41,564 bases of DNA from Niastella populi. Its GTDB lineage: Bacteria > Bacteroidota > Bacteroidia > Chitinophagales > Chitinophagaceae. Positions 1 to 27,899 of the stretch are shown piece after piece. The translations under genes and the position numbers were made by a program. The notes below the pieces were generated by a model, which did no database searches, was not told the origin of the DNA, and saw nothing but the letters and a program-made list of their open reading frames with translations. The first letter of the stretch is position 1, and each line of letters opens with the position of its first letter. The stretch spans positions 1-41,564 of the forward strand of contig NZ_LWBP01000224.1 of assembly GCF_002078015.1 (NCBI RefSeq). The letters run 5' to 3'.

Positions 1-118
1 ATTCGCTTACAGCTTACAGCTTGAAGCTTGCCGCTGTAATTGCCTTTCAGCTTTAGCCTGTATTTGTATTCGCTTACAGCTTACAGCTTGCAGCTTGAAG
101 CTTGAAGCTTGCAGCTGT
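1..118. repeat. Degenerate 7-bp repeat array A1 (downstream of the fucosidase)
   Basis: The stretch reads as consecutive heptamers of the form CTTnnAG (CTTACAG, CTTGAAG, CTTGCAG). It is split into two blocks by a spacer resembling CTGTATTTGTATT. The array stops just before the fucosidase stop codon at 124. The same units occur in opposite orientation at 1492-1735, so the fucosidase gene is flanked by inverted arrays. The array may continue to the left of the window. Confidence 0.85.
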
Positions 119-123
119 ATTCC

Positions 124-1476
124 CTATCCCTGCTCCACTACAATAATAGTATCCGGTCCATCGAAGGTGAGGCCTTCGGTTGAAAGAGTTATTCCTGTTT
201 TTTGTTTGGTGAATTTTACCGGGGTGCTGCTGCCAAGGAGTTTTACCGATTTTATTTTCAGTTTTGCATCGGGCAGTACGATGGCATTGCCTTCGGGCGC
301 TTTGAATACATGCAAATATATCAGTTTACCTTTTTGTGTGGTAACGCCCCAGGGCTGTGGCGCAAGCGGTCCGCCCCGGGTACCATAAACGCTTTCTCCA
401 TACTGTTGTAACCACTTCCCTGCCCTGGCGAGGGTATCGGCAAATTCCGATTGTATTAAACCGGTAGGCATGGGCCCTACATTCAGCAGCAGGTTGGCAT
501 CGCGGCCGGCTGCGCCTACCAGTAACTGCACCACCTGAGTTACCGTTTTATAATTGCGGTCGGTGATATTATACCCCCATGCGCCGTTGATGGTTTCGCA
601 GGTCTCCAGCGGCATGGCGTCTGATGGTTTTTGAAAACTCAGTCCCGATTTGTTTTCACCGGGCAGGTCTCTTTCGAACATCTGAAAATCTTCGCCTGCA
701 AACGGCGTCATGTGATGGTTGTTGCCGATCATACATTGCGGCTGCAGCTTATGAATAAGCGAATAGATCTCGTCATACTTCCAGTCGATCCGTGAACCGC
801 GGTCGGCATGGCCTTCAGGATTGGTTTGGTCCCAATGCCCATCGAACCAGATACACATGATATCGCCATAATTGGTGAGCAGTTCGGTGAGCTGGTCTTT
901 CATGAACTGCAGGTAAGATGCGTAGTTAGATTTCTCCGTTCTGCCCGTACCCTTTCCGGTGCGGCCGGTTTCCCAGGGATAATCGTTGCGGAACCAGTCG
1001 AGCAGTGAGTAATACAGTCCCAACTTCATGCCCTGTTTACGGCATTCTGCCGACAGCATTTTCAGCACATCTTTGCCATAGGGCGTATTGGTGATCTTCC
1101 AGTCGGAGTATTGGGTATCCCAGTTTGAAAAGCCATCGTGGTGGCGGGTGATGAAAACCATGTATTTCATGCCGGCGTTCTTTGCCGTGGCCACCCATTG
1201 GGCGGCATTGAAATCGGCCGGGTTGAATGCATGCAGCAGGCGGCTGTAATCAACCACTTTGATATTCCGGTTGTTCATTACCCATTCGCCGTCGGCCAGC
1301 ATGCTCGACAGCCCCCAGTGGATGAACATGCCATATTTATCGGCCTGGAACTGCTGGCGGGCCTGCAAATTTTCTGAGGCGGGTTTGTAACTGCCCGTTT
1401 CGGGCGCAGCGGTTTGCGCGGTTATTGCATTAATGGTCAAAAAAAGGCAGGTGACAATCAGTGTGATGGTTTTCAT
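124..1476 (-). CDS. Alpha-L-fucosidase, glycoside hydrolase family 29, secreted
   Basis: A 450-residue protein that should hydrolyse terminal alpha-L-fucose from glycans. A signal peptide covers about residues 1-20 (hydrophobic core after MKTITLIV, cleavage near ITAQ), so export to the periplasm or beyond is expected. GH29 hallmarks are visible. KYGMFIHWG is near residue 47 and FITRHHDGF near 108. The segment IWFDG places the likely catalytic nucleophile at Asp212, and LLLNVGPMPTG is near 330. Length fits the catalytic domain plus a short beta-sandwich. It is a single leftward gene whose 5' side begins 15 bp from repeat array A2. No carbohydrate transporter (SusC/SusD) lies beside it. The family is certain; substrate linkage is not visible. 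Confidence 0.95.
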   Translation of the reverse strand: MKTITLIVTCLFLTINAITAQTAAPETGSYKPASENLQARQQFQADKYGMFIHWGLSSMLADGEWVMNNRNIKVVDYSRLLHAFNPADFNAAQWVATAKNAGMKYMVFITRHHDGFSNWDTQYSDWKITNTPYGKDVLKMLSAECRKQGMKLGLYYSLLDWFRNDYPWETGRTGKGTGRTEKSNYASYLQFMKDQLTELLTNYGDIMCIWFDGHWDQTNPEGHADRGSRIDWKYDEIYSLIHKLQPQCMIGNNHHMTPFAGEDFQMFERDLPGENKSGLSFQKPSDAMPLETCETINGAWGYNITDRNYKTVTQVVQLLVGAAGRDANLLLNVGPMPTGLIQSEFADTLARAGKWLQQYGESVYGTRGGPLAPQPWGVTTQKGKLIYLHVFKAPEGNAIVLPDAKLKIKSVKLLGSSTPVKFTKQKTGITLSTEGLTFDGPDTIIVVEQG

Positions 1477-1491
1477 TGGGTGAAAGTAAGG

Positions 1492-1735
1492 AAAATACAG
1501 CTGTAAGCCATAAGCTGTAAGCTATAAGCAATACAAAATACAGGTGAAAGCTGAAAGCCGAAAGCTGAAAGGCGAAAGCAAATACAAAATACAGCTGTAA
1601 GCCATAAGCTGTAAGCTATAAGCAATACAAAATACAGGTGAAAGCTTAAAGCTGAAAGGCGAAAGGGAATACAAAATACAGGTGAAAGCCGAAAGCTATA
1701 AGCCGAAAGTCGAACGCAAATACAAATACAGGCCT
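1492..1735. repeat. Degenerate 7-bp repeat array A2 with an internal 61-nt direct repeat
   Basis: Blocks of heptamers (CTGTAAG, CCATAAG, CTATAAG; then CTGAAAG, CCGAAAG, GCGAAAG) alternate with a spacer resembling AATACAAAATACAG. A 61-nt segment at 1492-1552 recurs exactly at 1586-1646. Orientation is opposite to arrays A1 and A3. The array fills most of the upstream region shared by the divergent fucosidase and monooxygenase genes (1477-1943), so it probably lies in the leader or promoter of the fucosidase. Confidence 0.9.
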
Positions 1736-1813
1736 CGCTATACTGCAGGGAAGTGCCTGGCGTTGAACATATTTATTATACTTTTGGTTTTTAGAGGGTG
1801 CATTTACTTTAGG

Positions 1814-1885
1814 CTTTGGGCTTTGGCCTTTCGGCTTAAAACTGTATTTGCTTACAGCTTACAGCTTATAGCTTGTAGCTGTTTT
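1814..1885. repeat. Degenerate 7-bp repeat array A3, inverted relative to A2
   Basis: Heptamers CTTTGGG, CTTTGGC and CTTTCGG, then a CTGTATTTG spacer, then CTTACAG, CTTATAG and CTTGTAG, ending in a T run. This is the reverse complement style of array A2, so A2 and A3 could pair as a long imperfect hairpin. Between them (1736-1813) lies a TACTTTTG sequence at 1779-1786 that resembles a Bacteroidota -7 element for the rightward monooxygenase. No properly spaced -33 TTG was found. Confidence 0.8.
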
Positions 1886-1943
1886 TCGTACGAGATGAAA
1901 CTCTTCTAAAACAATCACCGTTAAAAACGAGGAACATAACTAT

Positions 1944-2990
1944 ATGGAAATAGGAATAAGCACATTCGTTGAACTTACGCCCGATCAGGAATCGGGAAAA
2001 TGTATTTCACAGCATCAGCGCATGAAAGACCTCATGGAAGAGGTGGCGTTGATGGAACAGGTTGGCCTGGATGTTTTCGCGGTTGGCGAACACCACCGGC
2101 CCGATTTTATCGCTTCTTCCCCGGCCGTAATCCTGGCCGCGGCGGCCGCTATTACAAAGAACATAAAACTCTCGAGCGCGGTTACGGTGCTTAGCTCCGA
2201 TGATCCGGTGCGCGTATTCCAGGATTTTGCTACCGTTGACCTGCTTAGTGATGGCCGGGCCGAAATTATGGCCGGCCGCGGATCGTTTATTGAATCGTTC
2301 CCGCTTTTCGGGTACGATCTGAAAGATTACGATTCGCTTTTTGCCGAAAAGCTCGACATGCTGTACCAGTTGAATAAAACTGAAAAAATAAGCTGGAAAG
2401 GAAAACACCGCGCCGCAATAGATAACCTTGGCGTTTACCCACGGCCTTTTCAGCCCGAACTGCCCATATGGGTAGCCGTGGGTGGAACACCCAACTCGGT
2501 TATCAGGGCCGCCTATTATGGCCTGCCGCTGGCCATGGCCATCATCGGCGGCAGCCCGGAACATTTTGTGCAACTGGCGCAATTGTACAGGGAGAACTAT
2601 AAAAAATACAACCAGGACGAAAGCAAACTGCAAATGGCCGTGCACTCACACGGTTATATAGCCGAGACCTCGCAGCAGGCCGCGGATGAGTTCTTTCCCT
2701 CCTATCAATATGTAATGACGCAATTGGGCCGCGAACGCGGCTGGCAACCCATGAGCCGCCAGCAGTTCGATGCCATGCGTACCAAAAAAGGCGCACTGCT
2801 TGTGGGCAGTCCGCAGGAAGTGACCGAAAAGATCCTGTATGAACAGGAACTGCTGGGCTTAACACGTTTCTTACTGCACATCAGCGTTGGCACCATGCCC
2901 CATGCTAAAGTGATGAAGGCGATCGAGTTGCTGGGGACTAAAGTGGCACCTGAAGTTAGGAAATATTCGAAGACGAATGTTGGTTCTTAA
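1944..2990 (+). CDS. LLM class flavin-dependent oxidoreductase (luciferase-like monooxygenase)
   Basis: A 348-residue cytoplasmic protein of the bacterial luciferase-like TIM-barrel superfamily. These enzymes use reduced FMN or F420 to oxidise small substrates. Visible family features are the N-terminal strand MEIGISTFVEL, the segment DVFAVGEHHRPDF near residue 42-54, SSAVTVLSSDDPVRVFQDFATVDLLSDGRAEIMAGRG near 76-112, and LPIWVAVGGTPNSV near 173. Length matches the family. The ATG at 1944 is used because the luciferase core starts immediately. It is a lone gene convergent with the pyrophosphatase, and its stop codon lies 4 bp before inverted repeat B. Substrate and flavin preference cannot be read from sequence. 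Confidence 0.9.
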   Translation: MEIGISTFVELTPDQESGKCISQHQRMKDLMEEVALMEQVGLDVFAVGEHHRPDFIASSPAVILAAAAAITKNIKLSSAVTVLSSDDPVRVFQDFATVDLLSDGRAEIMAGRGSFIESFPLFGYDLKDYDSLFAEKLDMLYQLNKTEKISWKGKHRAAIDNLGVYPRPFQPELPIWVAVGGTPNSVIRAAYYGLPLAMAIIGGSPEHFVQLAQLYRENYKKYNQDESKLQMAVHSHGYIAETSQQAADEFFPSYQYVMTQLGRERGWQPMSRQQFDAMRTKKGALLVGSPQEVTEKILYEQELLGLTRFLLHISVGTMPHAKVMKAIELLGTKVAPEVRKYSKTNVGS

Positions 2991-2993
2991 ATC

Positions 2994-3133
2994 GTGAAAC
3001 GGCAAACGTGAAACGTGAAAGTCCTATATCCGGGATTCATAATTATTTATCAGCGTTCGACTTAAATTTCAAGCTGCGCAGGGTCGTATATTAATTTCAA
3101 AGTGCGCGAGCTATTTCACGTTTGCCGTTTCAC
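2994..3133. repeat. Inverted heptamer array B between convergent gene ends
   Basis: The left arm 2994-3013 and right arm 3114-3133 are perfect 20-bp inverted copies separated by 100 bp. Both consist of 7-bp units (GTGAAAC, GGCAAAC and their complements). The right arm overlaps the pyrophosphatase 3' end and supplies its TGA stop (complement of 3130-3132). It may act as a bidirectional termination or mRNA-stability structure, but no T run is visible next to the arms. Confidence 0.85.
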
Positions 3134-3600
3134 GTTTCACCATTCAGTTTCTCCATCGCCAACCTCGCATTCAGGTTCTCTTCCCATTGAATGCTTTTAC
3201 CCTCCGCCTGAAGATACGTTGTAAAGAATAATTTAATACTGTCAATTAACGTATCGGGCAGTTCTTCCAGCGACATTATTCGGTCGTATTCGCTGCTTTG
3301 TTCAAGGATGCCTATATACCGGTCGTTGCGATAGGATCTTTTTCCACCCGTGGTTTGCGTGGCCTGTAAACAGCCAACGATACGCACATCCATTATACAA
3401 CCGGGAAAACCCTGGTACTCTGAAAGTACCAGTATATCGAGCGGGTCGCCATCTTCTCCTTTTGTGCCCGGGATAAAACCAAAATCGAACGGAAATACCA
3501 GTCCAGGCGCCAGTACTTTCTTCAACCTGAACAGTTTGGTTGCCTTATCGAATGCGTATTTCTGGCGGCTTAATTTGGGTGTTTCAATAACGACGTCCAT
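3130..3600 (-). CDS. ppa: Inorganic pyrophosphatase, family I
   Basis: A 156-residue soluble protein predicted to hydrolyse pyrophosphate to phosphate. The signature EDGDPLDILVL (residues about 49-59) carries the metal-binding aspartates. It is preceded by FPFDFGFIPGT and by ETPKLSRQKYAFD, which holds the conserved Glu and Lys. It is shorter than the 175-residue E. coli enzyme. The position matching E. coli Arg43 appears to be Lys (LKKVL), and the loop normally rich in acidic metal ligands reads TQTTGGKRSYRNDR. Some short Bacteroidota forms have similar loops, so activity is likely but not certain. The last residues (GET) and the stop are encoded by repeat B. Confidence 0.88.
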   Translation of the reverse strand: MDVVIETPKLSRQKYAFDKATKLFRLKKVLAPGLVFPFDFGFIPGTKGEDGDPLDILVLSEYQGFPGCIMDVRIVGCLQATQTTGGKRSYRNDRYIGILEQSSEYDRIMSLEELPDTLIDSIKLFFTTYLQAEGKSIQWEENLNARLAMEKLNGET

Positions 3601-3770: not shown

Positions 3771-4925
3771 ATGCGTAGAGAGACCTTCGAAAACACTACG
3801 CTGTCTAATTTGTACGAGATGCTCAACGATTGCAGCATCGACCGGGTAATGGCCATCGATAATAATATGTACGTTATTGCCTGGAATAAGACAGCAGCGA
3901 AGGTTACCGGTATCGAAAAAGCAGATATTATCGGCAAACCTTTATTGGAGACATTCCCGCAATTAAACGACGACCCTGAAATGATGGAAGCTATACAATT
4001 TGCCTTTCAGGGTAAAAAATCATTTCTTCCCGCCCATGCGGGGTTATTGAACCGGCAGTCATACGAGAATCATTTTATCCCGCTTATCAATGAGAATGGT
4101 ACTGTGAAAGGGGTTATGAATATCATGCATGATGTGGCTCAACGCGAAAAAGCGGAAAAAAAATTACAGCAGTTAAATGAAGCGCTGGAACAGCAATACC
4201 GCCAGCTGGAAACGGCTTCCACTGAAATGGCTACGTTTACTTATATAACCAGTAATGAAATAAAGGAGCCGTTACGGCATGTGTATACGGCCTTTGAACT
4301 GCTGGTGAATTCGGAAGGAAAGAACCTGTCGAACGGCGGCAAGGCAAATATCAGGCGGATCCAGGCTTCCCTCAATCGCATCAACCTGTTGCTGGATGAC
4401 ATCTGGGCCCTGAGCCATATCAACAGTTTCAAACAGGTGCGTAATTCAGTTGACCTGAATGATGTCTACCGCGAAGCGCGTAATAAACTGCAAAAGAAGA
4501 TCAGTGAATCGGATGCCATCATCAATGCCGCCAACCTGCCGGTAATTGCCGGTTACAAAGAAATGCTGGAAACTTTGTTCATAAACATCATTGGCAATGG
4601 GCTGAAGTTTCAGCCAGCCGGAAACCAGCCTCGTATCAACATAGAAAGCCACCTCGTGAACAAGGATAATCTGCCGGCAGGTATCCGCAGTAATAAACCC
4701 ATGTTGCGATTAACGTTTTCCGACAATGGTATTGGCTTCGATCAGGCGCAGGCCCACAGGATCTTTATTATGTTCGAGAAACTGCATCCAAAAGGAGAGT
4801 ATCCTGGCTCGGGTACAGGCCTCGCCATCGTAAAAAAGATCATGGAGGCGCACGATGGTTTTGTACAGGCCACAGCGCAACCCGGCGAAGGTGCAACAAT
4901 ACAATGTTATTTTCCGGTTGAATAA
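3771..4925 (+). CDS. PAS domain sensor histidine kinase with Asn in place of the phospho-accepting His
   Basis: A 384-residue cytoplasmic kinase-like protein with no membrane segment. A PAS domain spans about residues 18-125 (DRVMAIDNNMYVIAWN, ITGI-like segment, HDVAQREK linker). A coiled coil covers about 125-155. A HisKA-like helix follows, then a HATPase domain from about 255. The ATP site is intact: IIGNGLKF (N box), DNGIGFD (G1), GSGTGLAIVKKIMEAH (G2). In HisKA the sequence is SNEIKEPLR where related kinases have SHDLxEPLR, so codon AAT at 4254-4256 puts Asn162 at the phosphorylation site. No partner regulator is adjacent. It may be a phosphatase, a pseudokinase or an allosteric partner of another kinase. 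Confidence 0.9.
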   Translation: MRRETFENTTLSNLYEMLNDCSIDRVMAIDNNMYVIAWNKTAAKVTGIEKADIIGKPLLETFPQLNDDPEMMEAIQFAFQGKKSFLPAHAGLLNRQSYENHFIPLINENGTVKGVMNIMHDVAQREKAEKKLQQLNEALEQQYRQLETASTEMATFTYITSNEIKEPLRHVYTAFELLVNSEGKNLSNGGKANIRRIQASLNRINLLLDDIWALSHINSFKQVRNSVDLNDVYREARNKLQKKISESDAIINAANLPVIAGYKEMLETLFINIIGNGLKFQPAGNQPRINIESHLVNKDNLPAGIRSNKPMLRLTFSDNGIGFDQAQAHRIFIMFEKLHPKGEYPGSGTGLAIVKKIMEAHDGFVQATAQPGEGATIQCYFPVE

Positions 4926-4928
4926 ATC

Positions 4929-5060
4929 AGGGTCGCCGATTTTGGGGATTGCTGATTTCGGGATTTCTGATTTCGGGATTTAAAGATTTGGGGATTTTGA
5001 GATATCATTGGGTTTAAGCCCGCAGCCAAAATCTCAAAATCCCCAAATTCCAAAATCTGA
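4929..5060. repeat. Repeat array C with an 18-bp perfect inverted repeat
   Basis: Units beginning GATTT (GATTTCGG, GATTTCT, GATTTGGG, GATTTTGA) repeat every 7-8 bp from about 4938. Arms 4986-5003 and 5031-5048 are perfect 18-bp inverted copies with a 27-nt loop. It sits between the convergent kinase and DUF892 genes and probably works as a bidirectional transcript end. Confidence 0.85.
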
Positions 5061-5074
5061 AATTGCATTCCGGG

Positions 5075-5710
5075 CTATACCACCCAGATCTTTTTGTCCC
5101 AATTGTACGCGCCTTCGTGTTCGGCTTCTACATTGATGTAATTTTCTGCGATATCTGTCAACACCTGGTCGGTCATTTCTTCTTCGGCGAGCGTTTTATC
5201 GAGGAGATCCGCTGCGCGCTCCATACCCATGGTTAGGGCCAGCGCCACCAGTCCGCCATAAGATGCAATCTCATAGTGTTCTATCTTTTGCGCGGCAATG
5301 ATCAGCGCTGCATCCCTTGTCATGGTATTTTCTTCTGTTTCGCGAAGGATGGTCTTCAGTTCTTTTACCAGTCCGTCCATGGCTTCGCATCGTTTCCCCT
5401 CCGGTTTTTGTCCGATCATTTGAAACACTTTTTCCAAACGTTTAACATGGCGTTGCGTTTGTTTCATATGTTCATCGATGGCGTCTTCCAACTCCTCGGT
5501 AGTTGCCGCGTTTTTCATTTCAGGCATTGCTTTCAGCAATTCCTGTTCGGCATAGTACATATCTTTTACCTGGTCAATAAAGAATTTTTGCAGGTAAGAA
5601 GGTGTTTCTTCCGGGCCTTGTTGGGTGCCCCCTTTTTTCCTGGTTTCAGTTTCGGGTGTGTTATGCCCGTTTTTTTTTCCTGTTTCTGTTGCGGTGCCCA
5701 TATGCTGCAT
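5075..5710 (-). CDS. DUF892 ferritin-like stress protein (YciE/YciF family)
   Basis: A 211-residue protein. The first 40 residues are low-complexity and polar (KKNGHNTPETETRKKGG). The DUF892 four-helix bundle follows (about 40-205), with LQKFFIDQVKDMYYAEQELLKAMPEM, HMKQTQRHVKRLEKVF and a central HYEIASYGG helix. Glu and His residues on helices one, two and four could bind a di-iron centre, as known for this ferritin-like superfamily. It lies 88 bp downstream of the KGG protein on the same strand. That repeats the yciG-yciF-yciE association of enterobacteria, where the genes belong to the general stress response. Family assignment is firm. Biochemical role is unproven for the family as a whole. 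Confidence 0.92.
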   Translation of the reverse strand: MQHMGTATETGKKNGHNTPETETRKKGGTQQGPEETPSYLQKFFIDQVKDMYYAEQELLKAMPEMKNAATTEELEDAIDEHMKQTQRHVKRLEKVFQMIGQKPEGKRCEAMDGLVKELKTILRETEENTMTRDAALIIAAQKIEHYEIASYGGLVALALTMGMERAADLLDKTLAEEEMTDQVLTDIAENYINVEAEHEGAYNWDKKIWVV

Positions 5711-9604: not shown

Positions 9605-10581
9605 ATAAAAAAGGTCTTGAATTTTATAGCGCCATAAATGGTCCAGTATACCGATAACACCGGGATTATGGCTGAAGTAAAGATCATTTCGGTTATATGT
9701 GCGGGATCGTGCGAGGTATTGCGCAGCCGTTTCCAGGCAAACCAGGCGGTGAACGAGAGCCAAACGGCGAGGCAGGCTGCTGTCAATACCGGGTTGTTGA
9801 AGGCGAAGAACAGGGCCAGCAACAACATCAGTGTAATAATATAATAATATGCCGGCGTTCGTTCCATCCTGCTTTTCCTGTACAGCCATCCGTGTTTTTT
9901 ATATAACAGGGCATTGAACATGCCTTTCTTTTGTTCTTTGATGCTTACACCCCAGCTGGCTGCGCGTACAGGGTGCACAATAACAGCCGTCGGTACTTTT
10001 ATAATAGGAATATTTTTTTCGCTCAGGTCGAATTCGAGGGCGGTATCTTCCCGCCAGGCCATGGTAAACTCCTCATCGAGCCCGCCGGTTTGTTCCAGCG
10101 CGATGCGGCTGCAGGCGCAATTGGCGGTTACAAAACGCGCCTGTTCCAGCCGCCTGGTATTCATTTCATAATCGGTTGGAATGCCGGGTAAGGGAACTTT
10201 TATTTGTCCGCTAAAAGCGATGGCCGTATAACGGTACGGTATATATGCCTGCCAGTATTGTTGCAGGCAGCCGGCTTGCGGTACACAATCATCGTCGGTA
10301 AAAACGATGAGTTCGCCCAGCGCTTTGCGCCAGCCGGCATTGCGGGCGGCGGCGGGGCCCTTCTTCACCGGTAACGACATACAGGTTACGGCTAACCGGC
10401 CTGGATATGTGTTTAACCAGTACTTCATGTATTTTACCGTTTGGGGGTCGGGCCCGTCGGTAACGATGATGACCTCGAAACGGTTAGCGGTTATATGCTG
10501 GTTCATCAATGCCTTCAGGCAGCGGGCCAACAGTTCGGTACGTTGCCAGGTGGCTATTACGATTGAGATGTCGGGTTTCAT
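9601..10581 (-). CDS. Glycosyltransferase family 2 with C-terminal membrane segments
   Basis: A 326-residue inverting GT-A enzyme. It starts ISIVIATWQRTELLARCL. It has GPAAARNAGW at 75-84, the metal-binding DDD at 96-98, and the acceptor-side acidic motif WREDTALEFDL near 170. Two or three hydrophobic segments after residue 244 (YYIITLMLLLALFFAF, then AACLAVWLSFTAWFAW, and one near 300) anchor it to the inner membrane. It lies between the carbamoyltransferase and the GT9 gene, and its TGA overlaps the GT9 start. It probably adds one sugar to a lipid-linked or nascent glycan. The donor is unknown. Confidence 0.9.
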   Translation of the reverse strand: MKPDISIVIATWQRTELLARCLKALMNQHITANRFEVIIVTDGPDPQTVKYMKYWLNTYPGRLAVTCMSLPVKKGPAAARNAGWRKALGELIVFTDDDCVPQAGCLQQYWQAYIPYRYTAIAFSGQIKVPLPGIPTDYEMNTRRLEQARFVTANCACSRIALEQTGGLDEEFTMAWREDTALEFDLSEKNIPIIKVPTAVIVHPVRAASWGVSIKEQKKGMFNALLYKKHGWLYRKSRMERTPAYYYIITLMLLLALFFAFNNPVLTAACLAVWLSFTAWFAWKRLRNTSHDPAHITEMIFTSAIIPVLSVYWTIYGAIKFKTFFI

Positions 10582-10623
10582 AGAATGGCTGGTTTTTATT
10601 GATTAATTGTACACCTGGGGTTC

Positions 10624-10762
10624 AGAAGTAAGAAGTATGAAGTAGGAAGTATGAAGTAGGAAGTATGAAGCAGGAAGTATGAAGAACCCGAATTTTGAAG
10701 ATAAAAAATTATTAGCGAGTTATAAATAATAGCGCTCTTCTTACTTCCTGCTTCTTACTTCG
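10624..10762. repeat. Inverted 7-bp repeat array D
   Basis: Left arm 10624-10684 is made of GAAGTAT, GAAGTAG, GAAGTAA and GAAGCAG heptamers. Right arm 10737-10762 holds their complements (CTTCTTA, CTTCCTG). The middle is AT-rich. It lies between the carbamoyltransferase and the GT2 gene on the same strand, so a hairpin here could lower GT2/GT9 expression relative to the first gene. Confidence 0.9.
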
Positions 10763-10790
10763 TATTCTTATTTGTAAATAGAATAATTAT

Positions 10791-12491
10791 TCAATCAGGT
10801 GCTTTTTCCAACAAGAATGAGTTAATAACCAGCGCATCGAACGGGGATGTATAGAAACAGGCAATGGCATCTTTGGGTGTGCAAACAATAGGTTCGCCCC
10901 GGGTATTGAATGAAGTGTTGATCAGTACGGGCACGCCGGTGAGTTTATTGAACTCATGCAGCAGGTCGTAATACAACACATGCTGGTTCCTGTTTATGGT
11001 TTGAATACGGGCCGTACCGTCTACATGGCGTACAGCCGGAATTTTGTCTGCTTTATCGGGCTTTACATTATATACGAATAACATAAAGGGCGAAACCGTT
11101 GCATTCTCGAACCACTCCCCTGCCACGTCTTCCATTACCACGGGCGCTACCGGACGAAAATCTTCACGGTCTTTTATTTCGTTCAGCTTTTGTTGCATTG
11201 CTGCATCGGCCGGTGAAGCCAGGATAGAGCGGCTGCCCAATGCCCGCGGGCCAAACTCCATTCTTCCCTGGAACCACCCGATCACTTTGTTCTGCGCCAG
11301 CAGGGAGGCGGTTTCTGCAGCTATGTTATTCAACCGGCGGTAAGGGATCTTCATCCATTGTAATAATGATTCCACATCCGCATCGGAATAAGAGGGTCCC
11401 CAGTAGGCATGTTCCATTGTTTGGGCAGGAACACCGGCGTTGAATTTCCTGTCGACCCACATGGCTGCGCCGAGGGCGGTACCTGCATCGCCCGCTGCGG
11501 GTTGTACCCAGATATTTTTAAACGGTCCATTGTCGCGGATGACGGCATTCAATACGCAGTTCAATGCAACGCCGCCGGCCAGGCAGAGGTTGCCGGTCTT
11601 TGTTTCTTCGTATAACCAGTTAACCAGTTTCAATACGGTTTCTTCCAGCACTTTTTGTAATGAATGGGCAATGTCGAAAAAGCGTTGATCATAGTCGCCG
11701 CCTTTTGGGCGTGCCGGCCCAAAAACCGCTGCCGGGTCAAAATCGCCGATCGTATAACAGCCGTTATCATTTACATTGATCAATGACCTGAATTGCTGAA
11801 GGTAAACGGGTTTGCCATAAGAAGCGAGCGCCATTACCTTGTATTCATCCGATGAATGCAGGAACCCGAGGTAGGTGGTTATTTTTTCATATAACATGCC
11901 GAGGGAGTGCGGCATACAAACTTCGCCGATCTTCCCGAGCGAATTGCCCTCTCCCCTGAAATAACTGGTACTTGCCATTTCACCGCGGCCATCGAGCGTC
12001 AAAACCGCCGCTTCTTTAAAAGGCGATGGATAGAAAGCGCTTGCCGCATGCGCAATATGGTGTTCTACAAAATGCCATTTGCCAGAATTGAGCTTCCAGC
12101 CGGCAAGGCGTTTTTGCAGGTGGTGTGGATAACCATCGCGCAAATGCTGCGGCGCCTGCCGCATATACGAAAGAAAGAGATCGTTCAACTGGTCTGAAAA
12201 TACAGCGTGCGGCGCATCGATGTTGTCTGCTGATTGTTTACCGTTACTTTTAAGCAATGAAGGATCAAATGAATATGCGATATGATCCACATCGTTCATT
12301 GTTATACCTGCTTCCTGTAAACAATAATCAATTGCATGGAATGGTAATTCGTAAGCGGAAAATGGAACCGGCCGTTTGCCATGTTTTATATGTGTGAACC
12401 TTTCGTCTTCGACCGCTGCAATCAATACGCCGTCCTTTATAAGCGCTGCTGCCGAGTCATGGAATGCTGCGTTTATTCCCAATGTATACAT
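10791..12491 (-). CDS. Carbamoyltransferase, NodU/CmcH family
   Basis: A 566-residue O-carbamoyltransferase that should use carbamoyl phosphate and ATP to carbamoylate a sugar hydroxyl. The N-terminal Kae1-like domain begins GINAAFHDSAAALI, with His11 and Asp12 of the metal site. HHIAHAASAFYPSPF near residue 143, TLDGRGE near 166 and LCLAGGVALNCVLN near 300 are diagnostic. The C-terminal YrdC-like part has GWFQGRMEFGPRALGSRSI, followed by PVLINTSFNTRGEPIV. Length matches the family. It heads the leftward glycan group and is divergent from the GT4 group, so a carbamoylated glycan is the likely product. Confidence 0.95.
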   Translation of the reverse strand: MYTLGINAAFHDSAAALIKDGVLIAAVEDERFTHIKHGKRPVPFSAYELPFHAIDYCLQEAGITMNDVDHIAYSFDPSLLKSNGKQSADNIDAPHAVFSDQLNDLFLSYMRQAPQHLRDGYPHHLQKRLAGWKLNSGKWHFVEHHIAHAASAFYPSPFKEAAVLTLDGRGEMASTSYFRGEGNSLGKIGEVCMPHSLGMLYEKITTYLGFLHSSDEYKVMALASYGKPVYLQQFRSLINVNDNGCYTIGDFDPAAVFGPARPKGGDYDQRFFDIAHSLQKVLEETVLKLVNWLYEETKTGNLCLAGGVALNCVLNAVIRDNGPFKNIWVQPAAGDAGTALGAAMWVDRKFNAGVPAQTMEHAYWGPSYSDADVESLLQWMKIPYRRLNNIAAETASLLAQNKVIGWFQGRMEFGPRALGSRSILASPADAAMQQKLNEIKDREDFRPVAPVVMEDVAGEWFENATVSPFMLFVYNVKPDKADKIPAVRHVDGTARIQTINRNQHVLYYDLLHEFNKLTGVPVLINTSFNTRGEPIVCTPKDAIACFYTSPFDALVINSFLLEKAPD

Positions 12492-15704: not shown

Positions 15705-15748
15705 TTTGCGCTTAAGGCAGGCTAATACCAGTTAGGCAGATTTGTCAG

Positions 15749-16894: not shown

Positions 16895-16929
16895 CGGGTT
16901 AACAAGTTAACTAGTTAACTAGTCAACTT
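16890..16929. repeat. 8-bp repeat array G (GTTAACTA type)
   Basis: Octamers GTTGACGG, GTTAACAA, GTTAACTA, GTTAACTA and GTCAACTT follow each other. The TGA in the first unit is the stop codon of the GT9 gene. The units are themselves nearly palindromic. The same type recurs at 24417-24448 and 27829-27899. Confidence 0.85.
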
Positions 16930-17010: not shown

Positions 17011-18513
17011 ATGTCATGGAGGCCTGAACCAATACTTACCGAAAAACAGGTGAACCGGGCTATGAAGCTCGTGATCGCCGATGGGCTGGCTTCAGAAGCT
17101 ATGATCGCACTTACCAGTGGCACCTTCCTGGTAGCCATGCTCGTATTGCTGGATGCGAATAACTTCCAGATCGGGCTGCTGGCCGGTTTACCTACGTTCA
17201 CCAATATATTCCAGCTGCTGTCTGTGTGGCTGGTGCGCCGTTTCAACAACCGGCGGGCCATTGTGGTCATCAGTTCATTTTTGGCGCGAACGCCATTGCT
17301 GATCATTGGGGTGCTAATCCTTTTTTTAAAAAGCATACCGGTAGAGACCATCGTGTTCATTCTTTTCTTTCATTATTTTTTTGGCTCAGTGGCCGGCCCC
17401 TGCTGGAATGCGTGGATGAAAGACCTGATACCCGAAAAAGCTTTGGGCGCCTATTTCAGTAAACGTACCAGTTATACGCAGTTGTTCAATATCGTATTGG
17501 GACTGCTGGCCGCTTTTGTGGTTGATTATACAAAGAACCACCGCATTACGGCGGAGGTGAATGTGTATGCCTGTTTGTTTATCGTTGGCGGTATAGCCGG
17601 TATTATGAGCGCCCTGTTCCTGTCGAACACCGCAGAACCGATGGGCAGGGTTACAACGGGTAATATACTGACCGTTCTGCAAAGGCCGCTGCGCGACCGC
17701 AATTTCAGAAAGCTGCTGGTGTTCAACTCGGCCTGGGTATTTGCCCTGAATATCGCCACGCCTTTCTTTGTGGTGTTTATGATGAAAAAGATGGGATTGT
17801 CGATCTCGTGGATCATCGGGCTTGGCATTGCCAGCCAGATCTGCAGTATTTTGACCGTACGCATGTGGGGCCGCTTTGCCGACAACTACAGCAACAAAAC
17901 GGTTATAGGCATTTGTGCCCCATTGTATATGTTATGCCTCATCGGCTGGTGTTATGTTGGCATCTATACCCGCGAATATCTTAACATTCTTTTGTTGTTC
18001 GTAATTCATGCGGGCATGGGTGTTTCCAATGCAGGCATCAATCTTTCATTAACCAATATCAGTTTGAAGTTGTCGCCGGCCGACGAATCGGTTGTGTACC
18101 TCTCTACCAAAAATATCATTACCGCCCTGTTCTCTTTTATAGCGCCGTTGATCGGCGGTTATATGGCCGATTATTTCAGTTCGCGCTCTTTGTCGATCGA
18201 TGCGCAATGGAAGAGCCCGGACTGGCAAAAGGTGATCCATTTGCTCGACCTGCATGAGTTCAAATTCCTGTTCCTGATAGCGGCCGGCCTCGCCTTTATT
18301 GCCGCCGAGTTACTGATTACAGTAAAGGAAACCGGTGAAGTGGCAAAGAATGTAGTGCGGCGCATGATGCGTACCAGTATTAAAAGCAATCTGAAAGAAT
18401 ACTTTCTTATAGGCCAGCTGATCGATCTGCATGATGCGTTCAGGAATTTGCTGAGAAGGCGAACTGAAAAAGTGGCTGAGGTGGAGAATGATCAACCGGT
18501 TAATAGTTCATAG
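17011..18513 (+). CDS. MFS transporter
   Basis: A 500-residue integral membrane protein of the major facilitator superfamily with about 12 hydrophobic segments, from ALTSGTFLVAMLVLL near residue 35 to FLFLIAAGLAFIAAELLI near 430. Between the second and third segments is VRRFNNRRAIVVIS, the cytoplasmic loop typical of MFS proteins. A polar region with FSSRSLSIDAQWKSPDW near 392 is an extra soluble loop. A basic cytoplasmic tail of about 65 residues ends it. It follows the rightward glycan group after a 116-bp gap, so it may move the glycan or a precursor; this is inference from position only. The final Ser-Ser-stop is encoded by repeat H. Confidence 0.88.
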   Translation: MSWRPEPILTEKQVNRAMKLVIADGLASEAMIALTSGTFLVAMLVLLDANNFQIGLLAGLPTFTNIFQLLSVWLVRRFNNRRAIVVISSFLARTPLLIIGVLILFLKSIPVETIVFILFFHYFFGSVAGPCWNAWMKDLIPEKALGAYFSKRTSYTQLFNIVLGLLAAFVVDYTKNHRITAEVNVYACLFIVGGIAGIMSALFLSNTAEPMGRVTTGNILTVLQRPLRDRNFRKLLVFNSAWVFALNIATPFFVVFMMKKMGLSISWIIGLGIASQICSILTVRMWGRFADNYSNKTVIGICAPLYMLCLIGWCYVGIYTREYLNILLLFVIHAGMGVSNAGINLSLTNISLKLSPADESVVYLSTKNIITALFSFIAPLIGGYMADYFSSRSLSIDAQWKSPDWQKVIHLLDLHEFKFLFLIAAGLAFIAAELLITVKETGEVAKNVVRRMMRTSIKSNLKEYFLIGQLIDLHDAFRNLLRRRTEKVAEVENDQPVNSS

Positions 18514-18646
18514 TTCACAGTTCATAGTTCACAGTTCACAGTTCATAGTTCATAGTGCATAGTTAGCTTTAAAACCTGCGATTAATTGCGAACTCACGAA
18601 CTTATAAACTGAATAACTGAACAACTGAACAACTGAATAACTTTCA
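18504..18646. repeat. Array H between convergent genes
   Basis: The left part (18504-18568) has the heptamers AGTTCAT and AGTTCAC, which also provide the TAG stop of the MFS gene. The right part (about 18595-18646) has 8-bp units AACTGAAT and AACTGAAC, roughly complementary to the left part. It lies between the convergent MFS and STM4011-like genes. Confidence 0.85.
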
Positions 18647-18647: not shown

Positions 18648-19514
18648 CTATTCCTCCACCCGTTCCAGTTCCCGGCCTTTAAACACGTTGTACAGGTTCA
18701 ATTCATTCATATGCACATAGCCTATATGGCAGCCGCAGGTATCGTTGGTGCAGGTGCGGGGTTGTAAAATGCCATCGAGCGCATCTTCGTACAGGTTACC
18801 CAGTTTCTCCTTAATAAAGTGACACCGGAAAATATTGCCATCGCCGTCTACGCTTATAACGGTATGACCCGTACGGCAGGCTTTCCCCCTGCTTTCGTGG
18901 TACACCATGTTGTAGGGTACGTATGGGTCAACGGCTATCAAACGTTTACGCTCGGTTTCGTTATAGTAATCGGCCTGCTTTTTCAACGCATTCACCCACA
19001 GGTATCTTTCTTTTGGCAGCAGTGTGCGCATCGTCTCTATTTCTTCAATCGTTTCTTTGAAACCAACGATGCCCACGCTGTACATAACGCCCAGCGCATC
19101 GAGCTGGCGGCATTTGTTCAGGAAGGTTTCGCGGTCAACCTGTCCGGGATGCCAGGTGGCCCACAGGGCAATTTTATCTTTGTTGGCTTTTTGCAACCAG
19201 GTGAGTGTACAGGAAAGATTGGTTTGAATGGCCACTTTTTGAACATTGGGCATATTGCTGAGCTCAACCATGGCCTGCTGGTAATGTTTGCGGATAAGCC
19301 CTTCGCCCCAGGGGGTGAAGAAGATCTTAAAGTGTTCCACACCGTTAATGTGTGGCACACTTTGATGCTGTTGTATAAACGCTACGAAGCGTTCTACCTG
19401 TTGTTTATCGGTAGCCATGGTTGCCCGGGTATCTTTCCGTTTTGCGAACGGGCAATAGGTACAGTCGTAATTACAACTGGAAAGCACACCCCGGTATAGG
19501 ATCGATAGTGTCAT
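18648..19514 (-). CDS. STM4011 family radical SAM protein
   Basis: A 288-residue radical SAM enzyme. The SAM-binding cluster motif is Cys14, Cys18 and Cys21 (CNYDCTYC). A C-terminal set of Cys213, Cys231, Cys255, Cys260 and Cys262 (including FRCHF and CGCHIGYVHM) could hold an auxiliary iron-sulfur cluster like those of SPASM peptide-modifying enzymes. The family is named from its Salmonella member, and I know of no assigned reaction. It is the last gene of the operon and overlaps STM4012 by ATGA. The auxiliary cysteines suggest peptide or protein modification, which is inference. Confidence 0.9.
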   Translation of the reverse strand: MTLSILYRGVLSSCNYDCTYCPFAKRKDTRATMATDKQQVERFVAFIQQHQSVPHINGVEHFKIFFTPWGEGLIRKHYQQAMVELSNMPNVQKVAIQTNLSCTLTWLQKANKDKIALWATWHPGQVDRETFLNKCRQLDALGVMYSVGIVGFKETIEEIETMRTLLPKERYLWVNALKKQADYYNETERKRLIAVDPYVPYNMVYHESRGKACRTGHTVISVDGDGNIFRCHFIKEKLGNLYEDALDGILQPRTCTNDTCGCHIGYVHMNELNLYNVFKGRELERVEE

Positions 19515-24416: not shown

Positions 24417-24448
24417 GTTAACAAGTTAACTTGTCAACTAATCAACTT
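24417..24448. repeat. 8-bp repeat array I (GTTAAC type) at the HMA gene end
   Basis: Octamers GTTAACAA, GTTAACTT, GTCAACTA and ATCAACTT. Read on the minus strand, the array encodes the last Val-Asp and the TAG stop of the HMA protein. It is related to arrays G and K. Confidence 0.8.
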
Positions 24449-24653
24449 TCACCGCCTTATACCCCACTTCCTGTAACTTTTGTATCACTTCCTTTTCTTT
24501 TTCTTTGTCTGTTGTATTTACACTTAAGATCTTTTCGGGCGATTGCAGATCAACCTGCCAGTTATTGGCGCCTACTGCTTCATCGAGGCCCGGGGTTACG
24601 GTGGCCACACAGCCACTGCATTTGATCGTTGTTTTAAATTTTACTGTTTCCAT
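24438..24653 (-). CDS. HMA-domain copper chaperone-like protein
   Basis: A 71-residue single HMA domain with the ferredoxin-like fold. The metal-binding loop is KCSGCVATV with Cys12 and Cys15. The usual Met before the motif is replaced by Thr-Ile, and EVGYKAVKVD forms the last strand. It should carry Cu(I) to or from the adjacent ATPase. It follows the ATPase by 10 bp and is surely co-transcribed. The last two residues come from repeat I. Confidence 0.92.
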   Translation of the reverse strand: METVKFKTTIKCSGCVATVTPGLDEAVGANNWQVDLQSPEKILSVNTTDKEKEKEVIQKLQEVGYKAVKVD

Positions 24654-24663: not shown

Positions 24664-26958
24664 TTATAATTGAGTTGTTTTTAAACGTAAACTGTTGGTT
24701 ACAACCGAAACGGAACTCAGGGCCATGGCGGCGCCGGCGATCATGGGGTTTAACAGGAAACCATTGAATGCGTAAAGAACGCCTGCTGCCAGTGGAATTC
24801 CGATGAGGTTATAAATAAAGGCCCAGAACAAATTTTGTTTTATAGTGCGTACCGTTTTACGTGAAAGCACCAGCGCTTTGGGTATCGATTGCAGATCGGA
24901 TGTGATGAGCGTCATTTTTGCAACGTCCATGGCAATATCGGAACCTTTACCCATGGCGATACTTACATCGGCCTGCGCCAGCGCATGTGAGTCGTTGATG
25001 CCATCGCCTACCATCGCTACCACTTTATTTTGTTGTTGCAGTTTTTTTACGAAGCCGGCTTTATCGGCCGGCAACATACCTGCCACGTAATGTGCAACGC
25101 CGGTTTCTTTGGCAATGGCCGCCGCGGTTTGTTCATTGTCGCCGGTAAGCATATACACTTCTATGCCCATGTTTTGCAATTGCCTGATGGCATTGGGCGA
25201 ACTGTTTTTTATTTTATCGGCAATGGCTATGATGGCCAGCACTTCCTGCTCATTGGCGAAGTAGATCACGGTATTGGCCTGCCGCTGTAACTCCTCTGCA
25301 GGTTGTACCAGGTAGCTATCGATCTTAATCGCCTTCTCGTTTATGAGCTGTTTGTTGCCAACATAATAGCGGGCGCCGCCAGCCACACCGGTAACTCCCC
25401 TGGCGGTAAGGCTTTCAAATTGTTTTAGTTCGCCGCCGCCGGTTACCTGTTCTTTTTTCAGTTCATTGATCACCGCTTCGGCCAGCGGGTGTTCCGACTG
25501 AATTTCGAGGCTGTACAACACCTGCTTCAACGCCCGGTTGTTGGCCTTTGCGGGCAACCAGATCATTTGCGACACAACGGGTTTGCCTTCGGTAATGGTG
25601 CCGGTTTTATCAAGGATAACAGCATCCACTTTATAGGCCAGCTCGAGGCTTTCTGCGTCTTTGATAAGGATATTGTTTTCCGCCCCTTTACCAATACCCA
25701 CCATAATGGCGGTTGGTGTGGCAAGGCCCAACGCACAGGGACAGGCAATAACCAGTACCGTTACTGAAGTCATGAGGGCATTGGTGAAAGCATTGTCGCC
25801 ACCGGCCACCATCCATACAATAAAAGTGAGTATCGAAATACCTATCACTACCGGCACAAAGATGCCGGCTATTTTATCGACCAGTTTTTGCACCGGCGCC
25901 TTGCTGCCCTGCGCTTCCTGTACCATTTTTATAATATGGGCCAGCATGGTATCATTGCCTACTTTTTGCGCCATAAACTGAAAGCTGCCTTTCTGGTTGA
26001 TGGTGCCGGCAAAAACCTTGCTGTCTTTTTCTTTTTGAACGGGTACGGGTTCGCCGGTGATCATGCTTTCATCAACAAATGAGGAACCGGAGGAAACAAT
26101 ACCATCGACCGGGATCTTTTCGCCGGGGCGCACAAGAATGGTATGACCGGGCTGCACATTCGCAACCGGTAGTTCCTGTTCATTGCCATCGATAACAACG
26201 CGGACGGTTTTGGGCTGCAGGCCCATCAATTTTTTGATGGCCGAAGACGTATTTGATTTTGCTTTTTCTTCGAGCAGTTTTCCCAATGAAATAAAGGCAA
26301 TGATCACTGCAGCCGCTTCGAAATAAACATGCGGATGAATGCCCCGCGCATGCCAGAAGGCGGGGTTAACGGTATTGAATGCGCTGAACAAAAATGCGAT
26401 ACCGGTACTGAGCGCTACCAGCGTATCCATATTGGCCTTTCCATGCCGTGCCTGCTTCCATGCGTTGATGAAGAAAGAACGGCCAAACCAGGCGATCACC
26501 GGCAGGGTGAGGATCATAGAGATATAATTGCCGTAAGGCAGATCCATAAAGAACATGCCAATGACAACCACCGGCACCGATAAAACCGATGCCCAAATGG
26601 TGCGTTGTTGTAATGATTTGTAGTGGTCGTGCTGCGCCGCTTCTTTTATTTCATTGCTGTTGGCTTCATCGATAACGAGGTCGTAGCCAATGGAGCGAAC
26701 GGTTTTCTGCAGCTCTTCTACAGTGGCAATATCGGGGTTATATTCAACCCAGGCGCTTTGATTGGCAAAATTTACGCCGGCGGCCTTCACGCCTTCCACC
26801 GATTGTAACATCGATTCAACACTTACGGCGCAGGCTGCGCAGGTCATTTCCAATACAGGAAAGGTTTTCTTTACAAACGTGGTGTGCCACCCTTCCTGGC
26901 CAGGGCGTTGTAGGTGTGGCACACCTTCATTCCGTTTTTTTTCAATTGAAGTTGACAT
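24664..26958 (-). CDS. copA: Copper-translocating P1B-type ATPase
   Basis: A 764-residue copper exporter of the inner membrane. One HMA domain has [11 protein letters not shown] (Cys40, Cys43). Six to eight membrane segments include [12 protein letters not shown], the transport cysteines. DKTGTITEG carries the phosphorylated Asp, SEHPLAEAV is the nucleotide-domain HP motif, and [20 protein letters not shown] the hinge. The last membrane segments hold [16 protein letters not shown] and [20 protein letters not shown], typical of Cu(I) pumps. I start at ATG 26958; the open frame further upstream needs a TTG inside the palindrome. It lies between the HMA-AraC regulator and the chaperone on one strand. 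Confidence 0.95.
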
Positions 26959-26965
26959 ATGCGAT

Positions 26966-26979: not shown

Positions 26980-27101
26980 TCAGTCTATGTCGATGATCCA
27001 TTGTTATACAATAGGGAGATAGTTGTATATAATTTTAATGAGGTGATTCCCTTTGGTAATCGTGAATCGTGAAAGGAAGTTGAAACGTTAGCAGGTTGAC
27101 A

Positions 27102-27236
27102 AGTTGATAAAGGACATGAACTTATGCATCCTGACTAATTTATTAACACATCAGTTTTTTTGCTACTCCTGGGTTTCCAGCGCTATTTTCCCTGTGAATC
27201 TGTTAACTGTATTAACCTTTATTACCTTTATCAACT
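27102..27236. repeat. Inverted repeat J between regulator and copA
   Basis: AGTTGATAAAGG at 27102-27113 and its perfect complement at 27225-27236 enclose an AT-rich loop of about 110 bp. GTGAATC/GTGAAAG and GTTGACAA-like units flank the left arm. It lies between the regulator stop and the copA start and may end the regulator transcript. Confidence 0.65.
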
Positions 27237-27253
27237 CTATCATCTTTTCAATT

Positions 27254-27814
27254 TCATACTTTATCCAACGGCTTGCGGGTATTTTCCTTCAGCTCGCGGA
27301 ACTGGGTGGGTGTTAAACCGGTCTCTTTTTTAAACTGTTGTGAAAGATGCTGTACGCTGCTGTACTCCATCTGGCCGGCAATTTCGCTCAGGCTTAATTC
27401 ATTATATGTTAACAATTCTTTTACACGTTCTATACGCTGCCGGATGGTGTATTTTTCGATGGTAAGGCCTTCTGTGGAGGAAAACAGGTTCGAGAGGTAA
27501 TGATAATCCATTTGCAGTTTTTCTTCCAGAATGGCCGACAGTTTTTTGTTATTACCGTCCTCGTTCCTGTGTATAAGAGAGATGATGATATTCTTTATTT
27601 TTTCGATCAGTTTTTCCTTTTTGTCATCGAGCAGTTCAAAACCGATTGCCGTAAGGTTCCGGTTAAGGTTATCGAGTTGTTCGGGGGCCGGTTCATGATC
27701 GAGCGTAATTTCACCAAGGCTGATATTGTTATATGCAATGCCCGCTTTTTCCAGTTGTTCCTTTATGACGAGGATACAACGGTCGCACACCATATTTTTT
27801 ATATACAATTGCAT
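27254..27814 (-). CDS. AraC-family regulator with N-terminal HMA-like metal domain
   Basis: A 186-residue fusion. Residues 1-65 resemble an HMA domain: MQLYIKNMVCDRC with Cys10 and Cys13, then a strand ending AIGFELLDD. A helical linker follows. Residues about 85-182 are an AraC DNA-binding domain with two helix-turn-helix units (LSLSEIAGQMEYSSVQHLSQQFKKETGLTPTQFRE). Standing directly before copA and an HMA chaperone on the same strand, it very likely senses Cu(I) and controls this operon. It replaces CueR or CsoR, neither of which is present. Metal identity is inferred from context. Confidence 0.9.
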   Translation of the reverse strand: MQLYIKNMVCDRCILVIKEQLEKAGIAYNNISLGEITLDHEPAPEQLDNLNRNLTAIGFELLDDKKEKLIEKIKNIIISLIHRNEDGNNKKLSAILEEKLQMDYHYLSNLFSSTEGLTIEKYTIRQRIERVKELLTYNELSLSEIAGQMEYSSVQHLSQQFKKETGLTPTQFRELKENTRKPLDKV

Positions 27815-27818
27815 GGTA

Positions 27819-27826
27819 CAAAGATA
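27819..27826 (-). promoter_or_regulatory. Candidate -7 promoter element abutting the regulator ATG
   Basis: Read leftward it is TATCTTTG, an exact TAnnTTTG match ending 4 bp before the ATG at 27814. Transcription would start at or within a base or two of the A of ATG, so the mRNA would be leaderless. Array K occupies the -33 region. Confidence 0.45.
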
Positions 27827-27828
27827 CG

Positions 27829-27899
27829 GGTTAAGAAGTTAACGAGTTGACTAGTTAACGAGTTGACAAGAAGTTGAAATAATGAAAAAGTTGATAGAG
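27829..27899. repeat. 8-bp repeat array K upstream of the HMA-AraC gene
   Basis: Octamers GTTAAGAA, GTTAACGA, GTTGACTA, GTTAACGA and GTTGACAA, then decaying GAAGTTGA-like units. Same type as arrays G and I. It fills the upstream promoter region of the regulator. Confidence 0.85.

Follow-up and report, generated by a model that had tools for sequence, protein, structure and literature searches.

We conclude that the genome of Niastella populi (Bacteroidota, family Chitinophagaceae) carries a dispersed class of intergenic tandem arrays that have units of 7 or 8 bp, favor the 3' ends of genes, point inward from the gene edge, and often face an inverted partner. The arrays were described in preliminary form for the window studied here, which is an entire contig (C223; 41,564 bp) of the 8.61-Mb, 263-contig host genome (G000). 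Directly observed are the quantized period, the inward polarity, the 3'-edge preference, the recurrence of units, the differences between species in array presence and in unit, and, in one family, the joint change of both arms. We consider the chances about even that these are dispersed noncoding fold-back elements, the arms of which are tandem 7- or 8-bp arrays that expand by 7 or 8 nt at a time and are homogenized across the hairpin.

Period and abundance of the arrays

The host sample comprised seven stretches including the window (1,234,613 bp, 14% of the genome, with 180,530 bp intergenic); its contigs are those that answered a query with the array of window positions 1477 to 1943, a possible source of bias. 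Genes were called with an in-house caller rather than a published one. The period score is the lag-p identity in intergenic segments, with four dinucleotide shuffles and coding DNA as controls. The threshold was 12 for the host period scan and array catalogue; 11 for the samples from other genera, edge arrays, stop-codon phase, flank-copy test, and polarity vote; 10 for the first count of arrays in orthologous gaps and the unit network; and 9 for the test of three or more species, the terminators in orthologous gaps, and the lag scan of the window.

The preliminary description had staked its claim on intergenic autocorrelation at 7 to 8 bp above that of shuffled sequence, and across the sampled 14% of the genome the excess is clear: 91 intergenic segments reached the threshold at lag 7 and 75 at lag 8, versus 0 to 0.25 segments per lag in the shuffles and 5 (lag 7) and 3 (lag 8) in coding DNA. 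None did so at lags 4, 5, 6, 10, or 13. Multiples of 7 and 8 were well represented (62, 67, 37, 21, and 18 segments at lags 14, 16, 21, 24, and 28), and the other lags gave 4 segments at 9, 7 at 11, 11 at 22, and at most 6 at any remaining lag up to 30. Arrays are found in 120 of 776 host intergenic regions, and the catalogue holds 183, of which 13 were dropped for gap statistics (8 inside called genes and 5 without a neighbor). Sampled stretches of six other Niastella genomes also contain arrays at lags 7 and/or 8. Being head-to-tail 7-bp repeats in intergenic DNA at many loci, the arrays fit the definition of heptamer long simple repeats, or short tandemly repeated repetitive sequences (STRR), with 8-bp units nearly as common in Niastella.

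Contig C187 also holds a 702-bp near-perfect heptamer array (G000:C187:438140-438841), mostly AAGCGGC in about 100 copies, followed by a loop core of the GTGAAAC type. Two gaps of the same contig (265471-265719 and 65457-66098) share longer-period TTGTAATTGAATTGAACAGTG-like repeats that are unrelated to the 7-/8-bp arrays.

Position and polarity at gene edges

Mapping the arrays relative to gene ends, a check proposed at the outset, revealed a crowding of array edges at gene 3' ends, with 53 distances of 10 bp or less in the host versus 15.3 under random placement in the same gaps. Host edge arrays number 83 at stop edges and 30 at start edges, which is not the position just upstream of starts known for TAACTGA-type repeats. 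Host arrays occur in 28 of 128 convergent and 15 of 141 divergent gaps (p = 0.013). Summed over four data sets, the stop codon is itself an in-phase unit word in 39 of 166 stop-abutting arrays (8.3 expected); by eye, the window arrays at 15671 and 18499 are of this kind. At host stop edges, the density of stop words per nucleotide is roughly double in the inward direction compared with the reverse (0.099 versus 0.053). Stop codons in all frames were considered as the cause of the 7/8 period and rejected, as 23 of 65 host stop-edge units contain no stop word.

Units point inward from the gene edge, at stops and starts alike. When families were oriented by hand, 111 arrays were sense and 6 antisense at stops, 47 were reverse and 2 sense before starts, and neighboring runs were ordered +- in 40 cases, -+ in none, and ++ or -- in 47. 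Because these families were set by eye, orientation was also put to a vote by similar units at other loci, which was inward by 99 to 3 in the host, 49 to 1 in six other Niastella, and 39 to 2 and 29 to 0 in two genomes of related genera (G071 and G025). The vote omitted edge arrays without informative partners (11 of 113, 8 of 58, 3 of 44, and 5 of 34, respectively), and, as votes share partners, its p values overstate the case. With unbiased orientation, the facing order was +- in 38 cases versus -+ in 1, with 3 undecided; a looser count in one family gave 30 versus 1. The inward strand has more G than C in all data sets (skew, 0.11 to 0.79). Given the inward polarity of the units, paired arrays can form hairpins.

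Recurrence of the unit words

The preliminary description held that each locus mostly has a different unit. This is true within the window but not in the larger host sample, in which many loci draw on a limited set of recurring units; the impression was therefore an effect of sampling the window alone. Recurring 8-bp units are GATAATnn, AACTGAAY, AAGGCAAC, GATTTnGG, and GTTAACnn, and those of 7 bp include AAGCTGY, AACCAYA, AATGGTS, GTGAAAC, GTTCAYA, and TGAANGC. Most of the 60 commonest intergenic 12-mers of the host sample look like fragments of recurring units, and one 12-mer of the GATAATnn family occurs in 37 host gaps. The three-unit GATAATnn pattern GATAATNNGATAATNNGATAAT has 174 matches in the host genome (overlaps counted) and its reversed control none. 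Counts in ten genomes of the genus were 174, 173, 167, 64, 62, 9, 8, 0, 0, and 0, where one of the three zero-match genomes is only 61% complete and the other nine genomes are near-complete. Outside the genus, 4 of 59 genomes of other genera in the family gave two matches each.

The 424 arrays of seven Niastella genomes comprise 147 distinct units. In a network of single substitutions, 97 of the 101 units of period 7 fall into one component (null mean of the largest component, 67.75), and the 46 units of period 8 form 6 components (null, 35.25). The idea that arrays are built from neighboring sequence found no support. For 60 of 170 arrays, the flanking coding DNA contains the unit word; permuting units among loci gave 62.2, with 337 of 500 permutations reaching at least the observed number, and local copying from flanking genes was rejected. 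The unit TAACTGA at period 7 was seen in 0 of the 183 host arrays (14% of the genome); the octamer AACTGAAY does occur. Only 8 of 183 host units contain GGG or CCC, so units of the G-quadruplex type do not characterize the arrays. No Rfam family matched at gathering score in five sources (the window, L013, L019, L046, and L057).

Facing arms and loops

An inverted partner lies within 150 bp of 94 of the 183 host arrays, compared with 10 of 183 when flanks were shuffled; together with the polarity, this amounts to the inverted terminal repeats of a miniature inverted-repeat transposable element (MITE) or fold-back transposon. In the GATAAT family, the arms change jointly. An A at core position 3 is present in both arms at 4 sites, absent from both at 25, and confined to one arm at 0 (p = 4e-5), and at core position 2 the arms agree at 21 of 29 sites (p = 0.02). 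Two motifs are enriched beside arrays relative to expectation from other intergenic DNA, namely AATACAG (78 versus 9.0) and CTCGC[GT]A (25, as 13 + 12, versus 1.7), the latter often at the inner arm end and common to different unit families. Nonarray homology to another gap was found for 42 of 120 regions with arrays, 94 of 590 without, and 2 of 710 shuffled regions.

Orthologous gaps between Niastella species

We compared 73 gaps between adjacent orthologous genes that were comparable in at least two of five relatives of the same genus (G001, G002, G003, G006, and G007). Arrays were present in 55 of 293 orthologous regions and in 0 of 293 shuffled ones. Ten of the 73 gaps hold arrays in at least three species (permuted mean, 3.3; 0 of 2000 permutations as high, with no control for gap length), and 19 hold them in at least two, versus 16.0 permuted, which is not significant (221 of 2000 at or above). 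Units agree within one base in only 19 of 66 pairwise orthologous comparisons (8.6% for unrelated gaps), which bears out the proposal of an array class that keeps its architecture as the unit differs, here between species at orthologous sites.

Individual gaps, mostly read by eye, illustrate the pattern. In the divergent gap between window positions 1476 and 1944, the units are AAGC in G000 and G003, GTTGACGA in G002, AATGGTS in G001, GTTGCCG in G006, and AACGC in G007, and a similar stretch ending in TTTGGTT precedes the units in five of the six species. Between 4925 and 5075, GATTT arms in G000 and G002 correspond to GTTACC arms in G001 and G003 and to a plain GC hairpin with a T run in G006 and G007. 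The gap 10581-10790 spans 209 bp with arms in the host, and the flanking genes overlap in G002, G006, and G007. At C187:212642, the arms are of the GATAAT or GCTAAT type in four species and of the AAGCTGT type in G003 (by eye, below threshold), with none in G001. At C187:223709, the arms around a single loop core differ among several species (by eye). Site and layout can thus persist between species while the repeated word is often replaced.

Arrays in other genera

Arrays occur in Niastella and at least two related genera, so that a property of a single genus is refuted. In 40-kb samples, G071 had 12 arrays at lag 7 and G025 had 3 at lag 7 and 1 at lag 8; larger samples held 78 at lag 7 and 8 at lag 8 (G071, 240 kb) and 40 and 8 (G025, 140 kb). 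G066 had 1 at lag 8, G013 had 2 at lag 7 (still two in 140 kb), and none at either lag was found in 40 kb each of G010, G011, G020, G022, G026, and G045; the G066 and G026 stretches were picked around previously known GATAAT matches. The unit lists of G071 and G025 overlap with that of Niastella within the null range (5 of 33, null mean 2.7 and maximum 8; 5 of 20, mean 1.6 and maximum 6), and a vocabulary common to the genera was rejected. What is shared between genera is the grammar rather than the words.

Arrays within the window

More than 10 intergenic places between 5 and 27,864 carry 7- or 8-bp units, some extending a few codons into a gene end, as located by Tandem Repeats Finder (TRF), lag scan, and reading of the raw sequence. 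The arrays and unit words of the preliminary description are present at or near the positions it gave. The features, none assigned to a strand, are as follows.

5-30: 7-bp array GCTTACA/GCTTGAA, outer arm at the contig end (TRF, lag scan)
72-116: 7-bp array GCTTGCA adjoining the 3' end of gene 124-1476(-) (TRF, lag scan)
1494-1731: compound arm of 7-bp AAGC(TGT/CAT) and GAAAGC(C/T), interspersed with six AATACAG (TRF, sequence, lag scan)
1807-1880: facing arm, CTTTGGG and then GCTTACA units (TRF, lag scan, inverted BLAST matches)
2994-3020: 7-bp arm GTGAAAC/GGCAAAC immediately past the stop of gene 1944-2990(+) (TRF, sequence, lag scan)
3114-3140: facing arm TTTCACG/TTTGCCG, overlapping the 3' end of gene 3130-3600(-) (TRF, sequence, lag scan; fold z of 2990-3135, -6.3)
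4941-5003: 8-bp arm GATTTnGG past gene 3771-4925(+) (TRF, sequence; below the reach of the lag scan)
5026-5066: facing 8-bp arm CCAAAATC ahead of the 3' end of gene 5075-5710(-) (TRF, sequence, lag scan; fold z, -3.8)
10624-10684: 7-bp arm GAAGTAn (TRF, lag scan; in G002, G006, and G007, a 4-bp overlap of the genes takes the place of the gap)
10713-10719: loop motif TAGCGAG (reverse complement CTCGCTA), common to loops of other unit families
10737-10770: facing 7-bp arm CTTCTTA/CTTCCTG (TRF, inverted-partner search; fold z, -6.8)
15671-15701: 7-bp array CAATAGR containing the stop codon of gene 15129-15683(+), with a weak facing arm at 15742-15758 (TRF, sequence, lag scan)
16898-16928: 8-bp self-complementary array GTTAACnn past gene 15830-16894(+) (TRF, lag scan)
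18499-18563: 7-bp arm GTTCAYA containing the stop codon of gene 17011-18513(+) (TRF, sequence, lag scan)
18607-18642: 8-bp facing arm AACTGAAY at the 3' end of gene 18648-19514(-) (TRF, sequence, lag scan)
24417-24440: short GTTAAC(nn) array at the 3' end of small gene 24438-24653(-) (by eye and word search only; absent from the TRF and lag-scan lists)
27058-27073: two-copy AATCGTG (TRF, lag scan; lowest threshold only)
27830-27864: 8-bp array GTTAACGA/GTTGACTA (TRF; lag scan at the lowest threshold)

Nine window elements have RNA fold z scores from -1.4 to -6.8. Of the inverted partners proposed earlier, those of 2994-3140, 4941-5066, and 10624-10770 are upheld, with the pair once given as 4986-5048 being only the inner part of the second; for the pair labeled A2/A3, 18499-18563 with 18607-18642 and 5-30 with 72-116 are candidates. 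The region 1477-1943 has a related copy on C45 at 79% and 130 BLAST matches in the host genome (self and overlapping matches included), and the GATTTnGG element at 4941-5003 has many matches in several species of the genus, among the matches listed. The orthologous gap of 16898-16928 holds a GAAGTAR hairpin in G002 and none in G006 and G007; the place of 27830-27864 has a GTTAAC-type array in G007, weakly in G006, and none in G001 (by eye). At its lowest threshold, the lag scan also found two two-copy 8-bp repeats inside genes (9834-9850 and 11613-11629) and no array past 28,000; TRF found another two-copy 8-bp repeat within a gene at 35949.

Four contigs (the window, at 5-30, and C187, C191, and C199) start or finish inside or within about 40 bp of such arrays, which therefore probably break short-read assemblies. 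Positions 26881-26925 hold a copy of a dispersed palindrome, AGGTGTGCCACAC...GTGTGGCACACCT, with one arm altered; its word AGGTGTGCCACA occurs in 10 gaps of the 1.23 Mb, the copies match one another, and this is a separate, second repeat family. A tandem repeat of 156 bp in 3.6 copies (41002-41555) lies in a long open frame that runs off the contig and that possibly, at a guess, encodes a repetitive surface protein.

Discussion

If the arrays are the arms of fold-back elements, as we propose, replication slippage would lengthen or shorten an arm in increments of 7 or 8 nt, and copying across the hairpin, by template switching or gene conversion, could keep the two arms alike. Recombination or another copying step may spread units among the loci of one genome. 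Insertions would survive mainly right behind stop codons, where the array may supply the stop codon, and the elements would for the most part be tolerated repeats that affect mRNA 3' ends incidentally rather than serving as dedicated regulators. Several points weigh against this proposal. Slippage and cross-arm copying are inferred rather than directly observed, and no enzyme was identified, a search of the 8.6 Mb for Y1 transposases giving two matches only. Neighboring arrays of the same period share their unit within two bases at much the same rate in either orientation, in 44 of 99 pairs when inverted (random pairs, approximately 14%) and in 42 of 99 when direct, so the joint change of arms may partly reflect sharing within a site. 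Unit order is only weakly mirrored between arms (mean rank, 0.427, where 0.5 is none), most loops are unshared (only the 42 of 120 array regions noted above have homology elsewhere), and at C187:212642 the arms lie on either side of a GC terminator that scores in each of the six species, an arrangement that fits poorly with insertion in one piece.

A bolder form of the fold-back proposal, to which we give tentative credence at best, is that the arrays belong to an unrecognized class of elements in at least three genera of one family. The class would be defined by its grammar, that is, by a 7-/8-nt step, inward units with G over C, and outer edges at coding boundaries, and would be made by a dedicated or replication-linked amplification in 7-/8-nt steps with copying of arm from arm, words being replaced and structure inherited.

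It is unlikely that the arrays are functional gene-end signals, with selection preserving the armed hairpin as a transcription stop or as protection for mRNA 3' ends and leaving its unit free to drift. The arrays do favor convergent gaps, the arms of the GATAAT family covary, and in the gap 4925-5075 two species (G006 and G007) have what look by eye like plain GC hairpins with T runs where G000 to G003 have armed ones. Of these two, however, only G007 had a terminator according to the scorer, which called another next to the arms in G003, and arrays also occur in divergent gaps. Convergent gaps have a scored terminator in 13 of 28 cases with arrays versus 62 of 98 without (p = 0.13; 45 of 67 for gaps of at least 90 bp, p = 0.07), and array-polymorphic orthologous gaps in 10 of 16 versus 13 of 16 (convergent, p = 0.43) and 9 of 39 versus 14 of 56 (codirectional, p = 1.0). 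A T run follows 20 of 79 armed hairpins, as it does 18 of 79 random spans and 20.2% of 1000, so the hairpins show no excess of this mark of intrinsic terminators. Arrays as terminators or their replacement, suggested by the gap 4925-5075, are thus unsupported by terminator scoring and T-run counts; a fixed order of stop, array, and terminator was likewise rejected (43 cases versus 33 in the opposite order, 3 overlapping). That a DNA- or RNA-binding protein uses the arrays as clusters of binding sites, spaced by the variable columns, is very improbable: a fixed core with one or two variable columns, such as GATAAT(GT/TC/TT), would suit it, yet there are 147 different units in 424 arrays, and unit lists overlap between genera only within the null range.

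We doubt that plain polymerase slippage on local sequence, with heptamers favored by the polymerase footprint as proposed for long simple sequence repeats, is sufficient. The 7-nt preference, the one long, nearly perfect array, and an excess of heptamers in other bacteria (PMC4679880 and PMC4692102) would be expected from it; identical units at many loci, inward polarity, facing arms, and units not derived from flanking coding DNA would not. It is similarly doubtful that a Y1 transposase (a REP-associated tyrosine transposase [RAYT]) or another transposase moves the arrays as MITE-like elements or as elements like repetitive extragenic palindromes (REP), bacterial interspersed mosaic elements (BIME), or REP doublets forming hairpins (REPIN). 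The arrays are dispersed extragenic hairpins close to gene ends, CTCGC[GT]A and AATACAG are shared beside them, and one of the two Y1 genes, which encodes 142 amino acids (in locus L114; G000:C145, approximately 136308-139643), has an AATGGT-type array hairpin just upstream. This gene sits between two genes that by eye resemble aromatic amino acid biosynthesis genes; the second match has no array in the 3.2 kb examined, and both are candidate RAYTs. Two matches in 8.6 Mb contrast with arrays in 120 of 776 gaps, and the single loop core with different arms at C187:223709 also speaks against such a mechanism. Two Y1 matches with no clear link to arrays make mobilization by a RAYT doubtful.

Among known repeats, the STRR heptamers of Calothrix and Nostoc are short 7-bp tandem repeats dispersed in a genome; we know of no octamers or facing arms for them, and the likeness is one of description. 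REP, BIME, and REPIN elements are extragenic, form hairpins, and are dispersed near gene ends. The Niastella arrays resemble them in being extragenic, near gene 3' ends, and able to fold, and differ from them in that no constant palindrome was seen and the host has few Y1 transposase genes (for literature on REP, BIME, and REPIN, see PMC3116915 and PMC8266576). Three heptanucleotides of Calothrix are mentioned in PMC4692102, in which Rehm et al. (2015) describe arrays of GGGAATC in Xanthomonas and GGGGA(C/T)T in Nostoc. Those arrays are likewise 7-bp, intergenic, present at many loci, composed of fixed and variable columns ((GGGANTN)n), and variable in length and sequence between relatives at the same gene pairs. 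That article centers on one G-rich unit per organism, studied for quadruplex formation, whereas the present arrays comprise dozens of units, include octamers, and form facing arms of fixed polarity.

The preliminary description knew of no counterpart in Bacteroidota, and in this it was mistaken: TAACTGA direct repeats are known from Beggiatoaceae, Cyanobacteria, and five Bacteroidetes, with other heptamers at some of the Bacteroidetes sites (MacGregor 2015; PMC4679880). They too are 7-bp intergenic arrays of patchy distribution, and relatives can have the same gene pair without the array. In the available text, they are a single word mostly just upstream of starts in the main organism, unlike the many words, mostly behind stops, seen here. 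Archaeal Borg elements have many tandem-repeat regions that are said to evolve rapidly and arise independently (PMC9879509); unlike the Niastella arrays, they belong to extrachromosomal archaeal elements, and facing arms find no mention in the available text of that source. In searches of the open-license literature, we found no description of octamer arrays, facing arms, or inward polarity for Niastella or its family. Heptamer arrays are already known; new here are the inward polarity from the gene edge, through which paired arms face each other, and the joint change of both arms in one unit family.

For these genomes, the arrays counsel caution, since they often overlap gene ends and stop codons. 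The preference of long simple repeats in bacteria for 7 bases becomes testable in genomes that offer so many arrays and orthologous gaps that can be aligned. What had been isolated remarks on heptamer repeats can now be stated as measurable rules: a period of 7 and 8 (rarely 6 or 9), a near-exceptionless polarity in three genera, and the recurrence of sites despite the change of words.

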